A DNA stretch of 64,000 nt from Caballeronia calidae (GTDB lineage Bacteria; Pseudomonadota; Gammaproteobacteria; Burkholderiales; Burkholderiaceae). Positions 28,879 to 38,105 of this stretch are shown here, one piece after another. Under the pieces are notes generated by a model. The model was not told the origin of the DNA, made no database searches, and saw nothing but the letters and a program-made list of their open reading frames with translations. Position numbers and translations under genes: made by a program. Numbering within the stretch: position 1 is the first letter of the stretch; each line of letters opens with the position of its first letter. The stretch covers positions 186,001 to 250,000 of the forward strand of contig NZ_FCOX02000004.1 of the NCBI RefSeq assembly GCF_900044055.2, written 5' to 3'.

Positions 28879-30000
28879 TCAGCCAGTCTTTTGGGGGAGC
28901 TGAACCTCGACCCAATGCTGTCCCCGGACGTCAATGTAGAGCTCGGTCATGGCTTTGGAACTATGCCCCAAAAGCGCCTGCGCGAACTTCTCGCCATTCT
29001 GCTCCGCGTGCAGTCGGGCGGTCAGAGACCGGATCTCGTGAAAGGTGGTAGGCGTGAGCCCTTCCGGGGTCTCTATTTCATTCTCCTGCGTAGCCTTCTC
29101 CCGTGCCGCGATGAACGCCCCGTTCAACGTTTCGTAGCTCACCGGCTTGCCCCGCATCGAGGAGTATCGCCCATCGCAGAAGTGGATCAGATGTCGGCTC
29201 ACGACATTGTCCCGGCACTGCGAGATGGCCCCGGCAACGGAATGCTCGCCCAGTGCAACATCGAGCGGGATTTTTATCTTCGTCTTCCCGTTCTTCTTAA
29301 GCTGATCCACCCACAGGAAGCCGTCGCGCACGTCGTCGAAGCGCATCTTCCTTACGTCGCTCACGCGTTGCCCGGTGAGAAGGGCTAGCAGCAGCGCGTT
29401 CTTGAGCCACTGCTGGTCGGCTCTCTTATAGATGGCCCAAAAATCGTCTTTCGTCATTCGCGCGCGTTTGACTTCCGTTTTCGGCTTGAGCACGGATTCG
29501 ACCGGGTTCCGGCCGGCCTCGACTAATCCGTGCGTGATCGCGTCGCGGAAGATGTCCTTCAGACGCGTGCGAATGTTAGTCGCTTGAGTTGGACCACGCG
29601 ATCGCTCCGCTTCCTTGATTAGGTCAGCCGCATCCTTGGGCGTGAACTGGTCGATCGGTTTGCTTGCGCGCGCATCATCACGAATTGCTTTAATCTGCGA
29701 TTTGTAATTTTTAACGGTGTTTGGCTTGCGGTCCTTGGTGTACTCATTCTGATAGTCAACACAATGCTCGGCCAGGGTCTTCTTGCCATCGCCGGTCAGC
29801 GCGAGCAGATTTTGCTCATCCAGATTCCGAGCAATTTCCAAATTCGCTCGCTTGACCTTCTTGATTGCCGCTTCTAGATCTCTACCGAGGCCAGCCGATT
29901 TCCCCGTCAGTGGGTTCTTGAACCAGAGGTAGCCATTGCTATTTTGGTAGAGATTATTAGGCCAGGTTCGACGGGTAGCCTGTCGTTTGCGCGCGTTCAC
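28879..30000 (-). CDS. int: Tyrosine-recombinase integrase
   Basis: The 373-residue protein has an N-terminal arm-binding region (NNLYQNSNGYLWFKNPLTGK), a core-binding helical domain (about residues 75-175), and a catalytic domain with Arg in LLTGQRVSDVRK (about 212), HEIRS (HxxR, about 318), GHSSKAMT (about 346) and Tyr in ELYIDV (about 354). It inserts and, with excisionase, removes the prophage. Its gene overlaps the excisionase gene by four bases and faces the left junction. Confidence 0.95.
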   Translation of the reverse strand: MNARKRQATRRTWPNNLYQNSNGYLWFKNPLTGKSAGLGRDLEAAIKKVKRANLEIARNLDEQNLLALTGDGKKTLAEHCVDYQNEYTKDRKPNTVKNYKSQIKAIRDDARASKPIDQFTPKDAADLIKEAERSRGPTQATNIRTRLKDIFRDAITHGLVEAGRNPVESVLKPKTEVKRARMTKDDFWAIYKRADQQWLKNALLLALLTGQRVSDVRKMRFDDVRDGFLWVDQLKKNGKTKIKIPLDVALGEHSVAGAISQCRDNVVSRHLIHFCDGRYSSMRGKPVSYETLNGAFIAAREKATQENEIETPEGLTPTTFHEIRSLTARLHAEQNGEKFAQALLGHSSKAMTELYIDVRGQHWVEVQLPQKTG

Positions 30001-31767: not shown

Positions 31768-32100
31768 TTACGAGGCGGCGAACAAATCGCCGATCGCCTT
31801 GCGCGCGCGGCGTGTCTCGCGTGCGGTCCGCGCGTGATGCTCGGCGTCATAACCGAGATGACATCTCTGGCACCAGCAGCGCAGGTTGCTGAGATCACAG
31901 TTTTCCGGAACATGGTCAAGATGCGCTGTAGTGAGCACTACCTTGCTGCCGGTCTCAGGATGCGGCTGTCCGTTCTCGGCGCGGCAATCAGGCCACTTCG
32001 GCGAGCCCTCGCAGCAGTTGCCAGATCGCTCTCGTACGGCAGCAACAATAGCCTTCCAGTTGGCTGGATAACGGGTTCGGTTTTCAGGCTTGATCGGCAT
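31768..32100 (-). CDS. HNH-type nuclease-like protein
   Basis: The 110-residue protein has CRAENGQPHPETGSKVVLTTAHLDHVPENCDLSNLRCWCQRCHLGYDA, quoted in parts: LTTAHLDHVPE carries the core HxxH-like histidines, and CWCQRCHLGYD gives the zinc-binding Cys pair and the closing Asn/His region of HNH families. The start at 32100 follows GGAGACAG. Its place in an early operon suggests a nuclease of unknown target; it is not next to the terminase. Confidence 0.7.
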   Translation of the reverse strand: MPIKPENRTRYPANWKAIVAAVRERSGNCCEGSPKWPDCRAENGQPHPETGSKVVLTTAHLDHVPENCDLSNLRCWCQRCHLGYDAEHHARTARETRRARKAIGDLFAAS

Positions 32101-32368
32101 GGCTGTCTCCAAATAGATCGCCCTGAAGCTTGCCCTTGCTCGACTCCGAAAGGTGCGCCGGGCAGAAGTGTGCATCGGTGCCGACCTGGTGCGCGTGCAC
32201 GGCACACAGGTGCCGATCGCAGGTCTTTCCGGTCTTCGTGCGAAAGTCGCATTGAAACCCGCTTGGCACGCTGCATCAGTCGACGGAGCAGCGCTGCACA
32301 CGCTTGCGACCTCGCGTGCAGACGATTCCGGATATGCCGCCGGGGAGGCGGAAGGGCGTACAGGGCAT
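32084..32368 (-). pseudogene. Zinc-binding phage protein interrupted by an in-frame TGA
   Basis: From ATG 32368, four bases after the RT stop, the frame reads MPCTPFRLPGGISGIVCTRG and continues to RCSVD, then TGA (32276-32278), then CSVPSGFQCDFRTKTGKTCDRHLC and FCPAHL to 32084. The two halves form one cysteine/histidine-rich protein: cysteines flank the stop on both sides. A single GGA-to-TGA change would explain it. The distal half can still restart at GTG 32269. Whether the product is made is unknown. Confidence 0.6.
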
Positions 32369-32372
32369 GGCA

Positions 32373-33500
32373 TCATCTCTTCTTGTAGGTCTTCGTGAAT
32401 GCAACGTCTACGGCATGGCCGCGAGCGCGGATGACGTTCGCGAGTTGCGCGCGGTCATAGTGACTGGCCGTCGCCTGCCGTAACAGACCGAAATAGGAGT
32501 TACCGACTTCTAGCAGCTCGGTTGCTGGCGTGCATGCGACGCGTCGCAGGGCTTCGTTCCGCGTCCGCTTCCGCGTCGCACGGTGCCACGGCTTGATGAC
32601 TTGCCCGACAAAATCGACGCCGCGCGCGACTGGCTGCAGGATCGTCTTGCGCGGATTGATCCGCACGCCAAGATGCGCCGGCAGGAACGCTGTCACGTCC
32701 TCTAGGATCTCGTTCAAGCGTGCCGCTGACTCATCGAGGAACAGAAAATCGTCGACGTATCGGATGTAGTGCCGCACACCGAGAATGTGCTTCGCGCGCT
32801 GGTCGAGTACGTCGAGATAGACATTCGCAAAGAACTGGCTCGACAGGTTTCCGATCGGCAAGCCGAGATGCGCAGGCTGTCCGATCAGGCGTTTGTGAGA
32901 CGGCACGCGTTCCATCATCGCCGGGGCACCTCGGTAGACGAAGTCGGCCCGTGGATCGTGCATCAGCACGAGCTCGGTCAGACTGCGCCAGAAGGGCTCG
33001 CGGATCTTCGAGAGAAGCAGATCCAACACAATTCGTTTGTCGATGCTGACGAAGAAGTTCGCGAGGTCGCATTTCAGGTAATACGCTGGGCGCGACCAGT
33101 TTTGCGTAATCGATCGAACTTTCGCTTCGAGGCGCCGCGCTGCGTAGAGCGTCCCGCGACCCTTGATGCACGCGCACGAATCGGCGATGAACGATCGCTC
33201 GAAGAACGGTCCGATGCGGTTGTACAGCAGGTGATGCACGATGCGGTCGCGAAATTCCGCCGCCCACACTTCGCGCGGCTTCGGTCTCGTGATGACGAAG
33301 CAGATCGAGCCGCCAGGGCGATACCTTCCATCGGCTAGCTCGTCGTGCAGTTCGCGCAAATTGCGTTCGAGGTTCATTTCGAAGGAGAGCGCGGCATTGC
33401 TGTTGCGCTTCGTGCGCCGACAGTCGAGATAAGCCTCGACGAGGTCGGCGAACGTAAAACCATCTTTCCAATCTGCGGACGGCGCGGGCGCGGAACTCAT
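32373..33500 (-). CDS. DGR reverse transcriptase
   Basis: The 375-residue RT makes the mutagenised cDNA of the diversity-generating retroelement. Domain order: FTFADLVEAYLDCRRTKR opening, RPGGSICFVITRPKPREVWAAEFRDRIVHHLL (quoted in part), first catalytic Asp in YYLKCDLANFF (about 145), the DGR-type LPIGNLSSQFF motif (about 215-224; SQ where other RTs have QG), and YVDD (248-251). A C-terminal thumb follows (NSYFGLLRQATASHYD). ATG 33500 lies inside the template repeat and has no good Shine-Dalgarno sequence; the frame is open further upstream to 33800. Confidence 0.95.
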   Translation of the reverse strand: MSSAPAPSADWKDGFTFADLVEAYLDCRRTKRNSNAALSFEMNLERNLRELHDELADGRYRPGGSICFVITRPKPREVWAAEFRDRIVHHLLYNRIGPFFERSFIADSCACIKGRGTLYAARRLEAKVRSITQNWSRPAYYLKCDLANFFVSIDKRIVLDLLLSKIREPFWRSLTELVLMHDPRADFVYRGAPAMMERVPSHKRLIGQPAHLGLPIGNLSSQFFANVYLDVLDQRAKHILGVRHYIRYVDDFLFLDESAARLNEILEDVTAFLPAHLGVRINPRKTILQPVARGVDFVGQVIKPWHRATRKRTRNEALRRVACTPATELLEVGNSYFGLLRQATASHYDRAQLANVIRARGHAVDVAFTKTYKKR

Positions 33501-33561
33501 TGTTCTGTTCGTTGTAGTTCTGGTTGCCGTTGTTGAAGTTCTGATACCAAGCCCAGCCGGA
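33469..33561 (-). repeat. DGR template repeat (TR)
   Basis: On the minus strand this 93-bp element reads as eight AAC and one AAT codon among invariant TGG, CAG, TAC and GAG codons, an adenine-loaded design. It matches VR1 (34115-34203) and VR2 (34597-34688) except at adenines. Its 3' part, from GAGTTCCGCG to GTCCGCAG, is adenine-poor and identical in all three copies, as expected of the site where cDNA integration begins. It overlaps the start of the RT reading frame. Confidence 0.95.
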
Positions 33562-33582
33562 TGTATCGTGCTATCTACATCG

Positions 33583-33604
33583 CCCGGCCGATCGCTCGGC
33601 CGGG
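33583..33604 (-). other. Perfect GC-rich hairpin between avd and TR
   Basis: A 9-bp perfect inverted repeat (CCCGGCCGA, 33583-33591; TCGGCCGGG, 33596-33604) has a 4-base loop. It lies 21 bp upstream of the TR in the transcript. No T-tract follows on the minus strand, so it is unlikely to be a terminator. It may structure the template RNA. Confidence 0.75.
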
Positions 33605-33702
33605 AAACTGCGCCGGACCGTGCCGCACTCCGGCGGTCGGTATCCGTGATGCGCATGGCGGTGGCCTCGTGAGCCAGCGGCACGACCAGATTGAAAGATC
33701 GC

Positions 33703-34077
33703 TCAGCCATGGAAGCCTTGGCCTCCACGGTGCGGGCGACTTGCGGCGTTTTTCCAGCCGTTGGCCTGCTTCCCGATGCTCGTCGTCTGCTCGATCGCAC
33801 CGGCGTAAGCCGGGCGGGCGATCAAGCGCTTGTCCATGCCAAGCCGAAGAAGCAACTCGATAACCTGTAGGCGCTCGATCAGCTCATTGAGATGAGGCGA
33901 CTTGTCGGTCGCGACGTTGGCGCGGAACACCAGCACCATGATCTCGATGCATTCCGCGCTGATCTTCTCGCCGATGGAGCGCTTGAAGTCGCGGGGCATG
34001 TTCTTGACTAGGTCGGTCACGACATCGAGCAGCGTATATGCCGCTCGATAAATGGGCAGTTGGGTATGCAGTGCCAC
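33703..34077 (-). CDS. avd: DGR accessory variability determinant (Avd), four-helix bundle
   Basis: The 124-residue, basic, all-helical protein (MALHTQLPIYRAAYTLLDVVTDLVKNMPRDFKRSIGEK... in part) matches the S23-like four-helix-bundle family to which Avd belongs. In DGRs it forms a pentamer that binds RT and the template RNA and is needed for mutagenic retrohoming. The GTG start (34077) is six bases after the first target gene. The C-terminus (ASRPHRGGQGFHG) is disordered and basic. Confidence 0.88.
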   Translation of the reverse strand: MALHTQLPIYRAAYTLLDVVTDLVKNMPRDFKRSIGEKISAECIEIMVLVFRANVATDKSPHLNELIERLQVIELLLRLGMDKRLIARPAYAGAIEQTTSIGKQANGWKNAASRPHRGGQGFHG

Positions 34078-34083
34078 GGCGTT

Positions 34084-34557
34084 TTAAATGATCAAATTAC
34101 TGAAGGGATAAAACCTGCGGACGGCGCGGGCGCGGAACTCATTGCTCTGCCCGTCGTAGTACTGGCGGCCGTAGGTGAAGTGCTGATACCAAGCCCAGCC
34201 GGAGTTTTCCTCGTGCTGTTGGCCCGACCAGTACCAGGCGCCTTCGAACTCCTCCTTCAGGTTGGCGAACAGGAGCGATTGCTCGCGGCGCGTCGGCAGT
34301 TCACCGCCTTGCTCAGCGGCCCATTCACCGGCACGCTTCCATTCGGCGTCTTCGATCTCGCCAGGCAGCAAGATCAGGTGGTAGTCCGCTTCGCGTTCAT
34401 CGCCGAGCACGAGACCGGCGTAGCGCTCACCGGGCGCAAGGGGAATCTTGACGCCTGCAACAACGTATTCCGTCGCTTTCGGTTGTTTCTTGAACTCTTC
34501 GATCATGGCGCTGATACGCGCATGCTCGCTCTGGATTACTTCAAGCGTGATCGTCAT
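34084..34557 (-). CDS. DGR target 1, DUF1566-like protein with variable C-terminus
   Basis: The 157-residue protein has a short helical N-terminus (1-30) and a DUF1566-like domain: YAGLVLGDEREADYHLILLPGE, GGELPTRREQSLLFANL, AWYWSGQ, then the variable segment 119-148. Diversified residues are H126, T128, Y129, R131, Y133, D135, G136 and S138, all encoded by AAC or GAA in the template. The invariant frame (GWAWYQ, NEFRARAVRR) fits a C-type-lectin-like scaffold displaying a variable surface. There is no signal peptide. Its ligand is unknown. Confidence 0.92.
   Translation of the reverse strand: MTITLEVIQSEHARISAMIEEFKKQPKATEYVVAGVKIPLAPGERYAGLVLGDEREADYHLILLPGEIEDAEWKRAGEWAAEQGGELPTRREQSLLFANLKEEFEGAWYWSGQQHEENSGWAWYQHFTYGRQYYDGQSNEFRARAVRRFYPFSNLII
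34115..34203 (-). repeat. DGR variable repeat 1 (VR1)
   Basis: Aligned without gaps to the TR, ten bases differ, all at template adenines (A to C 3, A to T 2, A to G 5). A further A to G occurs in the final AGA codon. No non-adenine base differs across the 89 bp. Confidence 0.95.
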
Positions 34558-34587
34558 TGCGATGCTCCGTTGAAAATTGATGAAGGG

Positions 34588-34953
34588 TTAAATCGACAAT
34601 CTGCGGACGGCGCGGGCGCGGAACTCACTGTACTGTTCGTCGTAGGTCTGGTCGCCGTAGGCGAAGGTCTGACACCAAGCCCAGCCGGCATAATCTGGAT
34701 CATCATCCGATGTATTTGACCAATACGCACGCTTCTGAAACTGATCACGATGATTCGCCCAGAGCATGGCCTGCTCAACGCGTGTCGGCAGATCGCCGCC
34801 GATACTCTTCGCCCATTCCACCTGCGCTTGCCAGGTGGCGGCATCGTTATCGCCGGGCAGCAGAATGACGTGGTGAAAATCGCCATTCTTATCGCCGATC
34901 ACGCCAACATAGATTTCGCCTTCCACGAGCGGCGGCAGTTGAATTTGTTGCAT
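34588..34953 (-). CDS. DGR target 2, DUF1566-like protein with variable C-terminus
   Basis: The 121-residue paralogue of target 1 lacks its N-terminal helix: it starts MQQIQLPPLVEGEIYVGVIGDKNGDFHHVILLPGD (in part), then GGDLPTRVEQAMLWAN and RAYWSN. The variable segment is at 90-119, with diversified residues C94, T96, A98, Y99, D101, T103, D105, Y108 and S109; E106 keeps the template codon. The start at 34953 follows GGAGAAACG. It is the first gene of the DGR cassette. Confidence 0.92.
   Translation of the reverse strand: MQQIQLPPLVEGEIYVGVIGDKNGDFHHVILLPGDNDAATWQAQVEWAKSIGGDLPTRVEQAMLWANHRDQFQKRAYWSNTSDDDPDYAGWAWCQTFAYGDQTYDEQYSEFRARAVRRLSI
34597..34688 (-). repeat. DGR variable repeat 2 (VR2)
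   Basis: Ten bases differ from the TR over 92 bp, all at template adenines, including TAT to TGT, a site unchanged in VR1. The adenine-poor 3' tail matches the TR through CGCAGATTG. Confidence 0.95.
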
Positions 34954-36261: not shown

Positions 36262-36441
36262 TTATTTCTGTATCCGCGCGTGAACCACGCGCATGATTTC
36301 GATCTTGTCTTCCGGCATCGGAATAACTGGCGCGCCGTGCAGTGCCGCGAAGTACGGATCCAGCGACCGGCGTTCTTGCGCCGACATTTCCGCGTCTTCA
36401 ATCGCGGACAGCATCCTGAAGAGGGGTGGTGTAACGGTCAT
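36262..36441 (-). CDS. Small phage protein overlapping the exonuclease stop
   Basis: The 59-residue protein MTVTPPLFRMLSAIEDAEMS... ends MRVVHARIQK. Its ATG overlaps the exonuclease TGA (ATGA), and the stop is 15 bases before the next start. Composition is protein-like. Function unknown. Confidence 0.65.
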   Translation of the reverse strand: MTVTPPLFRMLSAIEDAEMSAQERRSLDPYFAALHGAPVIPMPEDKIEIMRVVHARIQK

Positions 36442-38105
36442 GCGGTACTTGTCTCAAGAATCGCTGTTTGGATGTGCTCAATCAGTGCCGCGCAGATATG
36501 CGGGAATATCTCCTCGTGATAGAGCTTGGCGGACTTGTCTGTCGCTGCAGGGGCGAAGCCGAGAGTTGTGAGGCCATCGGCGGTGACCATGACAGGTGCC
36601 AGGCGCTCGTTGATCTGGCCGAGGCGCAACGTCGGTGCACCGGACGGGGTGACGTTCGCTTTAACTCCAGTCCCTACGAATCCACTCCGTGTGGCCACAG
36701 CCGGAGATGCAGCTCCAGAAACCGTAGAAGCTGTTGAACCAGACGCGGCCTCCGCAGAGGCAACTACGTTTTTTGCAGCAGCCTCGTCCGCCTTGCGCTT
36801 CGCCTCGCGCTCGTCCTCCTGCCGTTTGTGCTCCGCAATGCGCGTCGTCACTGCCAGCTTGAAGTCGTCGATCGGCTTCTGGATCAGCGGCTGCAGATCG
36901 CGGAATAGGAACATGTGCTCGACGGCGATCTCCTTGTACCAATCGAGCTTGGCGCGCAGGTCGCGCGCTGCCTCGTCGGCGGCGATCTTGCCATTGGCCA
37001 ATGCGGTGTCGACCGCATCATGCAGGCTCGCGAGTGTGCGCTTGTTCTTCGCTGCCGCGACGAAGTCAGGTGCTAGCACCACGATAGAGACGATGTGCAG
37101 CTCGTCATTCAACGCTGCGACGTGATCGGCATACGCCTTCCGGCCGTCCGCGATGACTCCGGCCTTGATCTCGTCCTTCCGCTTCGTGACCAGCTTGTCG
37201 AGGCTCAGGCGCTTGTCGCGCAGTTGTGCCTTGATGAAATCGACGGTACGCATCAATTCGTCGATGCTCGACGTCTGCGCGAGCGCGGCGTTCTTCGCGA
37301 CTTCTAGATCCTTCTCGGCGGCCTCGCAGAACTTGACCGTCGCTTCCGCATCGGCGAAGTCCTGATCGGTTTCGAGCGTTGTCTTGATTCCCGCGATGAA
37401 GCGCTCGGCGGCGCTGCGGAACGCCGGCAGGTTGCTGGTGACGACTTCGCCGCGGATCTGCACCGCGAGTGCGGGCAGCGCCATGATCGCGTCGGCCTGA
37501 GGCTTGTCGGCGAGCTCGTGCGGCTGATACACCGCAAGGTCGCGCTCGAACTGATTCCAGCCCGAAGTGATGCGATCGAACCATGCCAAGTTGGGCTCGA
37601 TCTCGATGTGCTCGAGATTTTCGCGCGTGCCGTCCGAGACGACGAAGATGACCTTTTGTGCGCCGGTCACGAGCATGATCTGCTGGCACTGGGGCTGATA
37701 CTCATCGGGCAGCACGCCCGAGCGCACGGCGTGAGCGAGATCCGTGTTCCATTGCTTATGCTCGAACGCGAGCTCGTCGTCGATCGTCAGCCCATCGCAC
37801 GAGGCGGAGAGGGTGCCGAGCGAGCAGGTGACCGGGTAGAGATCCTGCCCGAGCATTTCTTCGACGATCGGCCGGGCCAGCGCTTCGACCTCGTGACCGT
37901 AGTCGAGGATGTTTTTCTGCACCCAGTCCGAGAACTCCTGCGGCGTTGCCGTGTGCTTCATGTGCAGCAACTCGTTGCGCTTGATCTTCGTGGAAAGGCC
38001 AAGCATCGCGGCGGCTTCGCTCGCGCCGAAGCGCGTCAGGCGAAATTGCCGCCATTCGTCTGAGCCCTGCGCCAGGTCGTGGGTTTCGCGTTTAGTCATT
38101 CTCAT
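36438..38105 (-). CDS. YqaJ/lambda-exonuclease-type recombination nuclease with long C-terminal extension
   Basis: The 555-residue protein has an N-terminal PD-(D/E)XK domain: GSDEWRQFRLTRFGASEAAAMLG, YGHEVEALARPIVEE, SCDGLTIDDELAFEHKQW (Asp and ExK triad). This chews 5' ends to give 3' ssDNA for annealing. Residues about 230-440 are a helical, charged region (DUF1351-like), and the C-terminus has a low-complexity Ala/Ser linker and a short domain. It overlaps the upstream annealing-protein gene by 14 bases. Confidence 0.85.
   Translation of the reverse strand: MRMTKRETHDLAQGSDEWRQFRLTRFGASEAAAMLGLSTKIKRNELLHMKHTATPQEFSDWVQKNILDYGHEVEALARPIVEEMLGQDLYPVTCSLGTLSASCDGLTIDDELAFEHKQWNTDLAHAVRSGVLPDEYQPQCQQIMLVTGAQKVIFVVSDGTRENLEHIEIEPNLAWFDRITSGWNQFERDLAVYQPHELADKPQADAIMALPALAVQIRGEVVTSNLPAFRSAAERFIAGIKTTLETDQDFADAEATVKFCEAAEKDLEVAKNAALAQTSSIDELMRTVDFIKAQLRDKRLSLDKLVTKRKDEIKAGVIADGRKAYADHVAALNDELHIVSIVVLAPDFVAAAKNKRTLASLHDAVDTALANGKIAADEAARDLRAKLDWYKEIAVEHMFLFRDLQPLIQKPIDDFKLAVTTRIAEHKRQEDEREAKRKADEAAAKNVVASAEAASGSTASTVSGAASPAVATRSGFVGTGVKANVTPSGAPTLRLGQINERLAPVMVTADGLTTLGFAPAATDKSAKLYHEEIFPHICAALIEHIQTAILETSTA

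Follow-up and report, generated by a model that had tools for sequence, protein, structure and literature searches.

A diversity-generating retroelement with one template and two lectin-fold target genes in the early region of a Caballeronia calidae prophage

The stretch of 64,000 nucleotides at positions 186,001 to 250,000 of Caballeronia calidae contig NZ_FCOX02000004.1, here called the window, carries on its minus strand a cassette (32373-34953) which we read as a diversity-generating retroelement (DGR). The order is target A, target B, avd, template repeat (TR) and the gene for a reverse transcriptase (RT). A general repeat search of the window gave three copies of 92 bases each, all on the minus strand. 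The copy adjoining the RT gene is the TR (33469-33560); the two others are variable repeats (VRs), VR-A (34597-34688), which encodes the C-terminus of target A, and VR-B (34111-34202). All ten mismatches between VR-A and the TR are at TR adenines, and so are 11 of the 12 in VR-B, where the remaining one is at the final base of the repeat. Pooled, 21 of 22 mismatches fall on the adenines of a TR which has 26 of them in its 92 bases (binomial P for at least 21 of 22, 4.8e-11). When VR-A is compared with VR-B, mismatches are found at 14 TR-adenine positions and at one other, again the last base, as expected of separate events. The original prediction of a complete DGR in which one TR serves two targets is borne out: the components lie in the order claimed, and both VRs match the single TR. 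A blastn search of the 9.6 Mb assembly found no further repeat copies and no third target in the genome itself. It might be argued that the repeats are the ends of duplicated genes which drifted apart without any retroelement mechanism, since the two targets are paralogues. This explanation is refuted by the adenine specificity of the mismatches, by the RT, avd and the structured RNA RT-15 adjoining the repeats, and by the VR differences in relatives, which are likewise concentrated on TR adenines.

The RT gene is likely to be 32373-33656 in full (minus strand, 427 amino acids), with an ATG inside RT-15 which is preceded by GAGG and is the start annotated in the related Burkholderia phage Magia (MT701587); a shorter form of 375 amino acids would start at 33500, within the TR. 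The DGR-type motifs LSSQ and YVDD which had been claimed for the protein are present as NLSSQ and RYVDD. The profiles matched, PF00078 and phrog_1423, are those of general RT families. The best chain in the PDB is 8ub7, entitled 'Reverse transcriptase' (E 1e-35), and the next match is at 2e-9. The group II model gives 77 bits where its cutoff is 300, and the retron St85 model 45 bits where the cutoff is 235. In an unrooted tree of 22 RTs, none of them from a retron, ten host RTs with the group II-type motif QGxxxSP form one clade with support 1.0. The window RT is found outside this clade among twelve DGR-type RTs, together with those of Magia, phage QDWS and BPP-1, so that the phylogeny proposed as a check places it on the DGR side, as does the PDB match. 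The avd gene (33703-34077, minus strand) codes for the accessory variability determinant; Avd is recognized by PF22296 (bAvd) with 49 bits, above the cutoff of 40, and by phrog_3206, and reaches 51.3 bits with NF033474, under the cutoff of 80.

Target A (34588-34953, minus strand) has 121 amino acids when counted from the ATG at 34953, a start picked by likeness to the annotated Magia gene; the mechanical open reading frame (ORF) begins further up at a TTG. Target B (34084-34557, minus strand) has 157 amino acids, with an extra N-terminal helix and strands. Both are predicted to have a C-type-lectin fold. In models made with AlphaFold2 (AF2) from alignments of relatives the mean predicted local distance difference test score (pLDDT) is 95.7 for target A and 91.6 for target B, and for both models the best PDB match, and the sole one at E of 0.001 or below, is 8q4e, the C-terminal domain of Legionella Lcl; many C-type lectins follow with weaker E-values. 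The targets had been called DUF1566 proteins, a family which we take to be the present PF07603 (Lcl_C). The predicted fold supports this name, but the PF07603 scores of 28.3 and 23.7 bits are below the gathering score of 34.9, and on the strength of the models we call the targets Lcl-like only. No hydrophobic segment was found in either by hydropathy (maximum 19-residue means 0.69 and 0.88). That they are paralogues, as claimed, is confirmed by a profile comparison of A with B (E 6e-57).

Relatives were collected by RT similarity. A scan of IMG/VR for the RT pattern gave 516 related stretches and a scan of species genomes 129, and 80 were fetched from each; among phage records 113 matched and the cassette regions of seven were fetched. 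In 149 loci, the window included, the sequence reached 4.4 kb or more beyond the RT on the upstream side; this set is limited to the fetched flanks, and nine pairs in it are identical over the region compared. Two VRs were found in 110 of these loci, three in 29, four in 2, one in 6 and none in 2. Two targets are the normal state of this lineage, as at least two VRs are present in 141 of the 149 loci. The loci with four VRs from one TR are L143, a Janthinobacterium locus, and L148, an Undibacterium locus.

In a tree of the targets without the VR part, one clade (support 0.72) takes in 57 of the 59 B proteins and no A protein, and another (support 0.96) takes in 55 of the 58 A proteins, one B and 11 extra targets. 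This tree leaves out 82 VRs without ORF assignment, loci with RT identity below 71% and duplicate sequences, and at least one of its extra-target rows is an ORF in the wrong frame. Because A and B separate in it, the two look like old paralogues which have been kept side by side. A recent duplication was considered and is disfavoured by the same separation of the N-terminal parts.

VRs that stay identical in all related strains and after induction had been named as grounds against the original prediction. We compared 21 pairs of close relatives, setting VR positions opposite TR adenines against positions outside VR and TR. In 11 of the pairs the rate of difference is far higher opposite TR adenines than elsewhere. 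For example, 18 of 55 such positions differ between loci L053 and L055 where only 2 of 2412 outside positions do; the numbers are 24 of 58 and 39 of 2307 for L017 and L019, and 25 of 74 and 51 of 2542 for the Pseudomonas phages Haboob and phPA-G. Both VRs are affected in each of these three pairs. When seven pairs were split by VR, each VR compared was found to vary, with 0 to 2 changes at its other positions. The prediction stands in these 11 pairs; in the remaining ten the VRs are identical or nearly so. The differences at TR adenines in close relatives therefore suggest that both targets are diversified in nature within the family.

For the window copy itself activity can be argued only indirectly, since no independent sibling of the locus was found, and we infer it from the family. 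A DGR which was once active and is now silent in this lysogen, its VRs being fossils, would agree with the lack of an independent variant of this very locus and with an identical record in IMG/VR (L004). It is at variance with the RT, Avd, RNA and TR, which are all intact in sequence, with the many TR-adenine positions at which the two VRs differ as if from separate events, and with the variation in several close relatives. We regard such a silent element as quite unlikely.

The cassette is part of a prophage. A tyrosine integrase gene (28879-30000, minus strand; PF00589, PF09003) lies on one side, and on the other a gene for a YqaJ/RecE-like exonuclease of an early recombination module (36438-38105, minus strand; PF09588, phrog_7655). 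Terminase, portal and tail-sheath genes are found at 47.7-59.2 kb of the window, and these genes together with the integrase and the exonuclease indicate a contractile-tailed prophage, in support of the claim of a temperate Burkholderiaceae phage. The DGR is located between integrase and recombination genes, far from the tail genes. When the three complete related phages LPPA56, QDWS and Magia were scanned end to end, 8 VRs were found (2, 3 and 3), all near integrase or recombination genes; LPPA56 is mostly unannotated, and its early-region placement is based on the recombinase gene close to its cassette. At 31780-32109, shortly downstream of the RT gene, the window encodes a protein related to the HNH endonuclease of Magia (46% identity); since an HNH gene is near the DGR in Magia as well, it may be a conserved neighbour.

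What the targets do is a separate question. They are small, have no membrane or signal segment by hydropathy, and are encoded beside the integrase and recombination genes, for which reasons they may be binders that are not part of the virion, rather than tail fibres. A variable cytosolic protein which binds viral proteins has been proposed in a model of DGR-based immunity (PMC10053308). The competing explanation makes the targets part of the virion, as receptor-binding or decoration proteins which happen to be encoded away from the tail genes, with the DGR altering adsorption as in BPP-1. The annotated Mtd protein of BPP-1 is a precedent, and the viral targets in clades 1, 4 and 6 of a published DGR classification are described there as mostly tail proteins (PMC8144416). 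The targets of the window, however, have only 121 and 157 amino acids and sit amid integrase and recombination genes, and no VR is close to annotated structural genes in Magia, QDWS or the window. We give a virion role a substantial chance, though less than even.

Taken together, we conclude with a probability of about 0.93 that the locus is a DGR of a contractile-tailed prophage, located in its early region, with two lectin-fold targets diversified from one template. DGRs are recognized by adenine-specific differences between TR and VR, by a VR at the 3' end of a lectin-fold target gene, by an RT of the DGR clade and by Avd, and these are found here, the fold in predicted models; the RT-15 RNA and the adenine-specific divergence of VRs in several close relatives are added to them. 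The mechanism would be that the TR RNA is copied into cDNA by RT and Avd with misinsertion opposite adenines. This cDNA would then take the place of VR-A and VR-B, both of which match the TR at their GC-rich ends. In this way two small proteins with C-type-lectin fold would gain new binding surfaces from one template. Retrohoming at the window locus is proposed by analogy with BPP-1.

Some observations weigh against this conclusion. Among the 21 close pairs, nine show no difference anywhere and a tenth differs at two VR positions only; probably at least some of the identical pairs are one genome present in two collections. The only identical record to the window that was found, L004, has identical VRs too; it is probably the same isolate or provirus. 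A single fold of each VR end showed no obvious GC-rich hairpin like the stem-loop 3' of the VR in BPP-1, an element described as important for efficiency and not strictly required (PMC12875486). Finally, the non-virion role suggested for the targets has position, size and fold as its only basis.

The arrangement of the RNA around the TR was less expected. A structured RNA, Rfam RT-15 (RF03018), is found at 33559-33741 on the minus strand with 173.4 bits (gathering score 82, E 9e-43). It lies 5' of the TR, ends at the TR start and overlaps the 3' end of avd, and it was found in all 11 relatives scanned. An alignment of 119 sequences gives 32 consensus pairs for this 5' element, and 19 of these occur with three or more standard pair types. 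An ATG inside RT-15, in frame and open into the RT, is present in 79 of the 80 loci with RT identity of at least 70% and in 25 of 58 below; 30 of the 168 loci surveyed lacked the motif or the sequence and were left out. A Shine-Dalgarno-like stretch precedes this ATG in 93 of the 104 open loci as against 5 of the 34 others. Of the 104 open loci, 31 lack any additional ATG, GTG or TTG as far as about RT codon 16, which means that in these either the TR is translated or an unusual or later start is used. The RT start at 33656, upstream of the TR, is therefore the likely one judged from the sequence, and it would put the TR inside the RT reading frame. A constraint of the RT peptide on the TR was not seen in 55 sequences, where the TR varies most at the second position of RT codons (0.449 as against 0.281 and 0.244 at the two others). 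By hand reckoning from the coordinates, this position corresponds to the third codon position in the target frame. Close to the TR end the loci are of unequal length. It may be mentioned that positions 280-337 of another locus, L007, match Rfam RF02278 (Betaproteobacteria_toxic_sRNA) close to a prophage DGR.

Just 3' of the TR the RT coding sequence may contain further RNA structure. The first proposed element, hairpin 1 (33409-33456, minus strand), has a z of -3.17, a value for a segment chosen after the fold was seen. The position of hairpin 2 (33351-33395, minus strand) is strongly folded in some relatives, and the hairpin is not formed as such in the window copy's own fold. Over 30 loci the region after the TR has a mean z of -2.12, whereas two segments elsewhere in the RT gene give -0.10 and -0.19. 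When synonymous codons were shuffled in the 60 loci with the closest RTs among 108 non-redundant ones, 25 had z below -2 just after the TR, compared with 0 to 12 in eight other windows of the gene. Hairpin loops of at least 6 bp recur in two codon bins: 35 and 31 loci (of at most 115) have them there, where shuffles give 7.8 and 12.0.

The evidence from base pairs is mixed. In 73 sequences, scored on a structure taken from one row, L009, which favours the L009-derived structure, 79.5% of the cells are paired, compared with 77.3% after shuffling and 30-44% when the structure is slid. Cells with a double change number 53 as against 27.2 in shuffles, yet there are also 53 at slide -1. The covariation score of 0.101 (shuffled 0.080) was reached by none of 500 shuffles. 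The count of pairs with a double change is 11 (shuffled 9.3), a value which 116 of 500 shuffles reach, and that of further pair types is 40 (shuffled 36.4), which 55 of 500 reach. The hairpin consensus of RNAalifold after the TR consists of 3 pairs in 77 close sequences and of none in 75 distant ones, and on the whole set, where the alignment is poor, it has no pairs there. Another alignment could anchor only 36 of 165 rows, 32 of them unique and most of them distant, and in these rows many of the base pairs in the window hairpin are disrupted. For the window copy, z after the TR is -1.37 in the 30-locus comparison; with synonymous shuffles it is -2.77, but also -2.60 in an unrelated RT segment. 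Synonymous positions after the TR are not unusually conserved. It should be noted that z does not flag RT-15 itself (mean -0.70). On the whole the hairpins 3' of the TR are suggestive.

A more far-reaching proposal is that the RT messenger is the template RNA. RT-15, the TR and the two hairpins, which would replace the intergenic spacer of BPP-1, would then form one RNA that also encodes the RT start. Translation of the RT would compete with the use of the TR as template, and this would give a built-in switch between enzyme and mutagenic cDNA. We consider it rather doubtful that the proposal is correct in this form. If it were true, template RNA could hide inside an RT gene, which would bear on the regulation of DGRs and on their detection.

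Magia is among the closest known systems. It has the same order of targets, avd, TR and RT, 79% DNA identity over 99% of the cassette and the same early position, and its record annotates two lectin-fold genes as potential or possible DGR targets. It differs by a third target about 6 kb away. Outside the DGR genes only the HNH gene and one replication-side gene match the window at E 1e-8. Shewanella phage vB_Sb_QDWS (OK094664; L087/L196) likewise has a third VR (L196:44976-45064), unannotated as such, in a hypothetical gene beside a RecT-like gene. Its record and that of 'Hujiaoplasma phage zrk29-1' (OP650936) are both 47902 long, with nearly equal match values; the stated hosts are very distant, and one host label may be wrong.

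The DGR of Bordetella phage BPP-1 shares with the window the logic of RT, Avd, TR and VR, and has a related RT (31% identity). Its target Mtd has a lectin fold. BPP-1 diversifies one annotated tail protein, whereas the window has two targets outside the tail module. The RNA domain of BPP-1, RF03022, is 3' of the TR, between TR and brt, and the window has RF03018 5' of the TR; also unlike BPP-1, the TR of the window lies within the RT frame. A TR overlapping the RT ORF is a recognized arrangement, structural group 3 of DiGReF (PMC3521204).

The two-target DUF1566 arrangement had been considered new, and this does not hold, because DGRs with two VRs have been published and 141 of 149 related loci have at least two. 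The DiGReF tables of 2012 already give two VRs for DGRs of Burkholderia thailandensis MSMB43 and B. glumae BGR1, with the view that paralogous targets likely arise by duplication followed by independent diversification (PMC3521204). In a study from 2019, 271 of 948 DGRs have several VRs, 216 of them with one TR, and the Vibrio cholerae DGR described there has one TR and two DUF1566 targets (PMC6642488). The loci of both studies, compared by their descriptions, have one TR and several paralogous targets like the window, and no difference in kind was established. The tentaclin DGRs of gut phages also serve two target genes from one TR; as described, their targets are unlike in topology and one VR is near the 5' end, whereas the window has paralogous targets with both VRs at the C-terminus (PMC10743442). 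With these cases, Magia and the other relatives at hand, two targets from one TR had to be rejected as a novelty. The locus adds one member to a frequent, published DGR layout, and is a clean case for asking what makes temperate phages retain, next to the genes for integrase and recombination, two hypermutated lectin-fold proteins which apparently do not belong to the tail.

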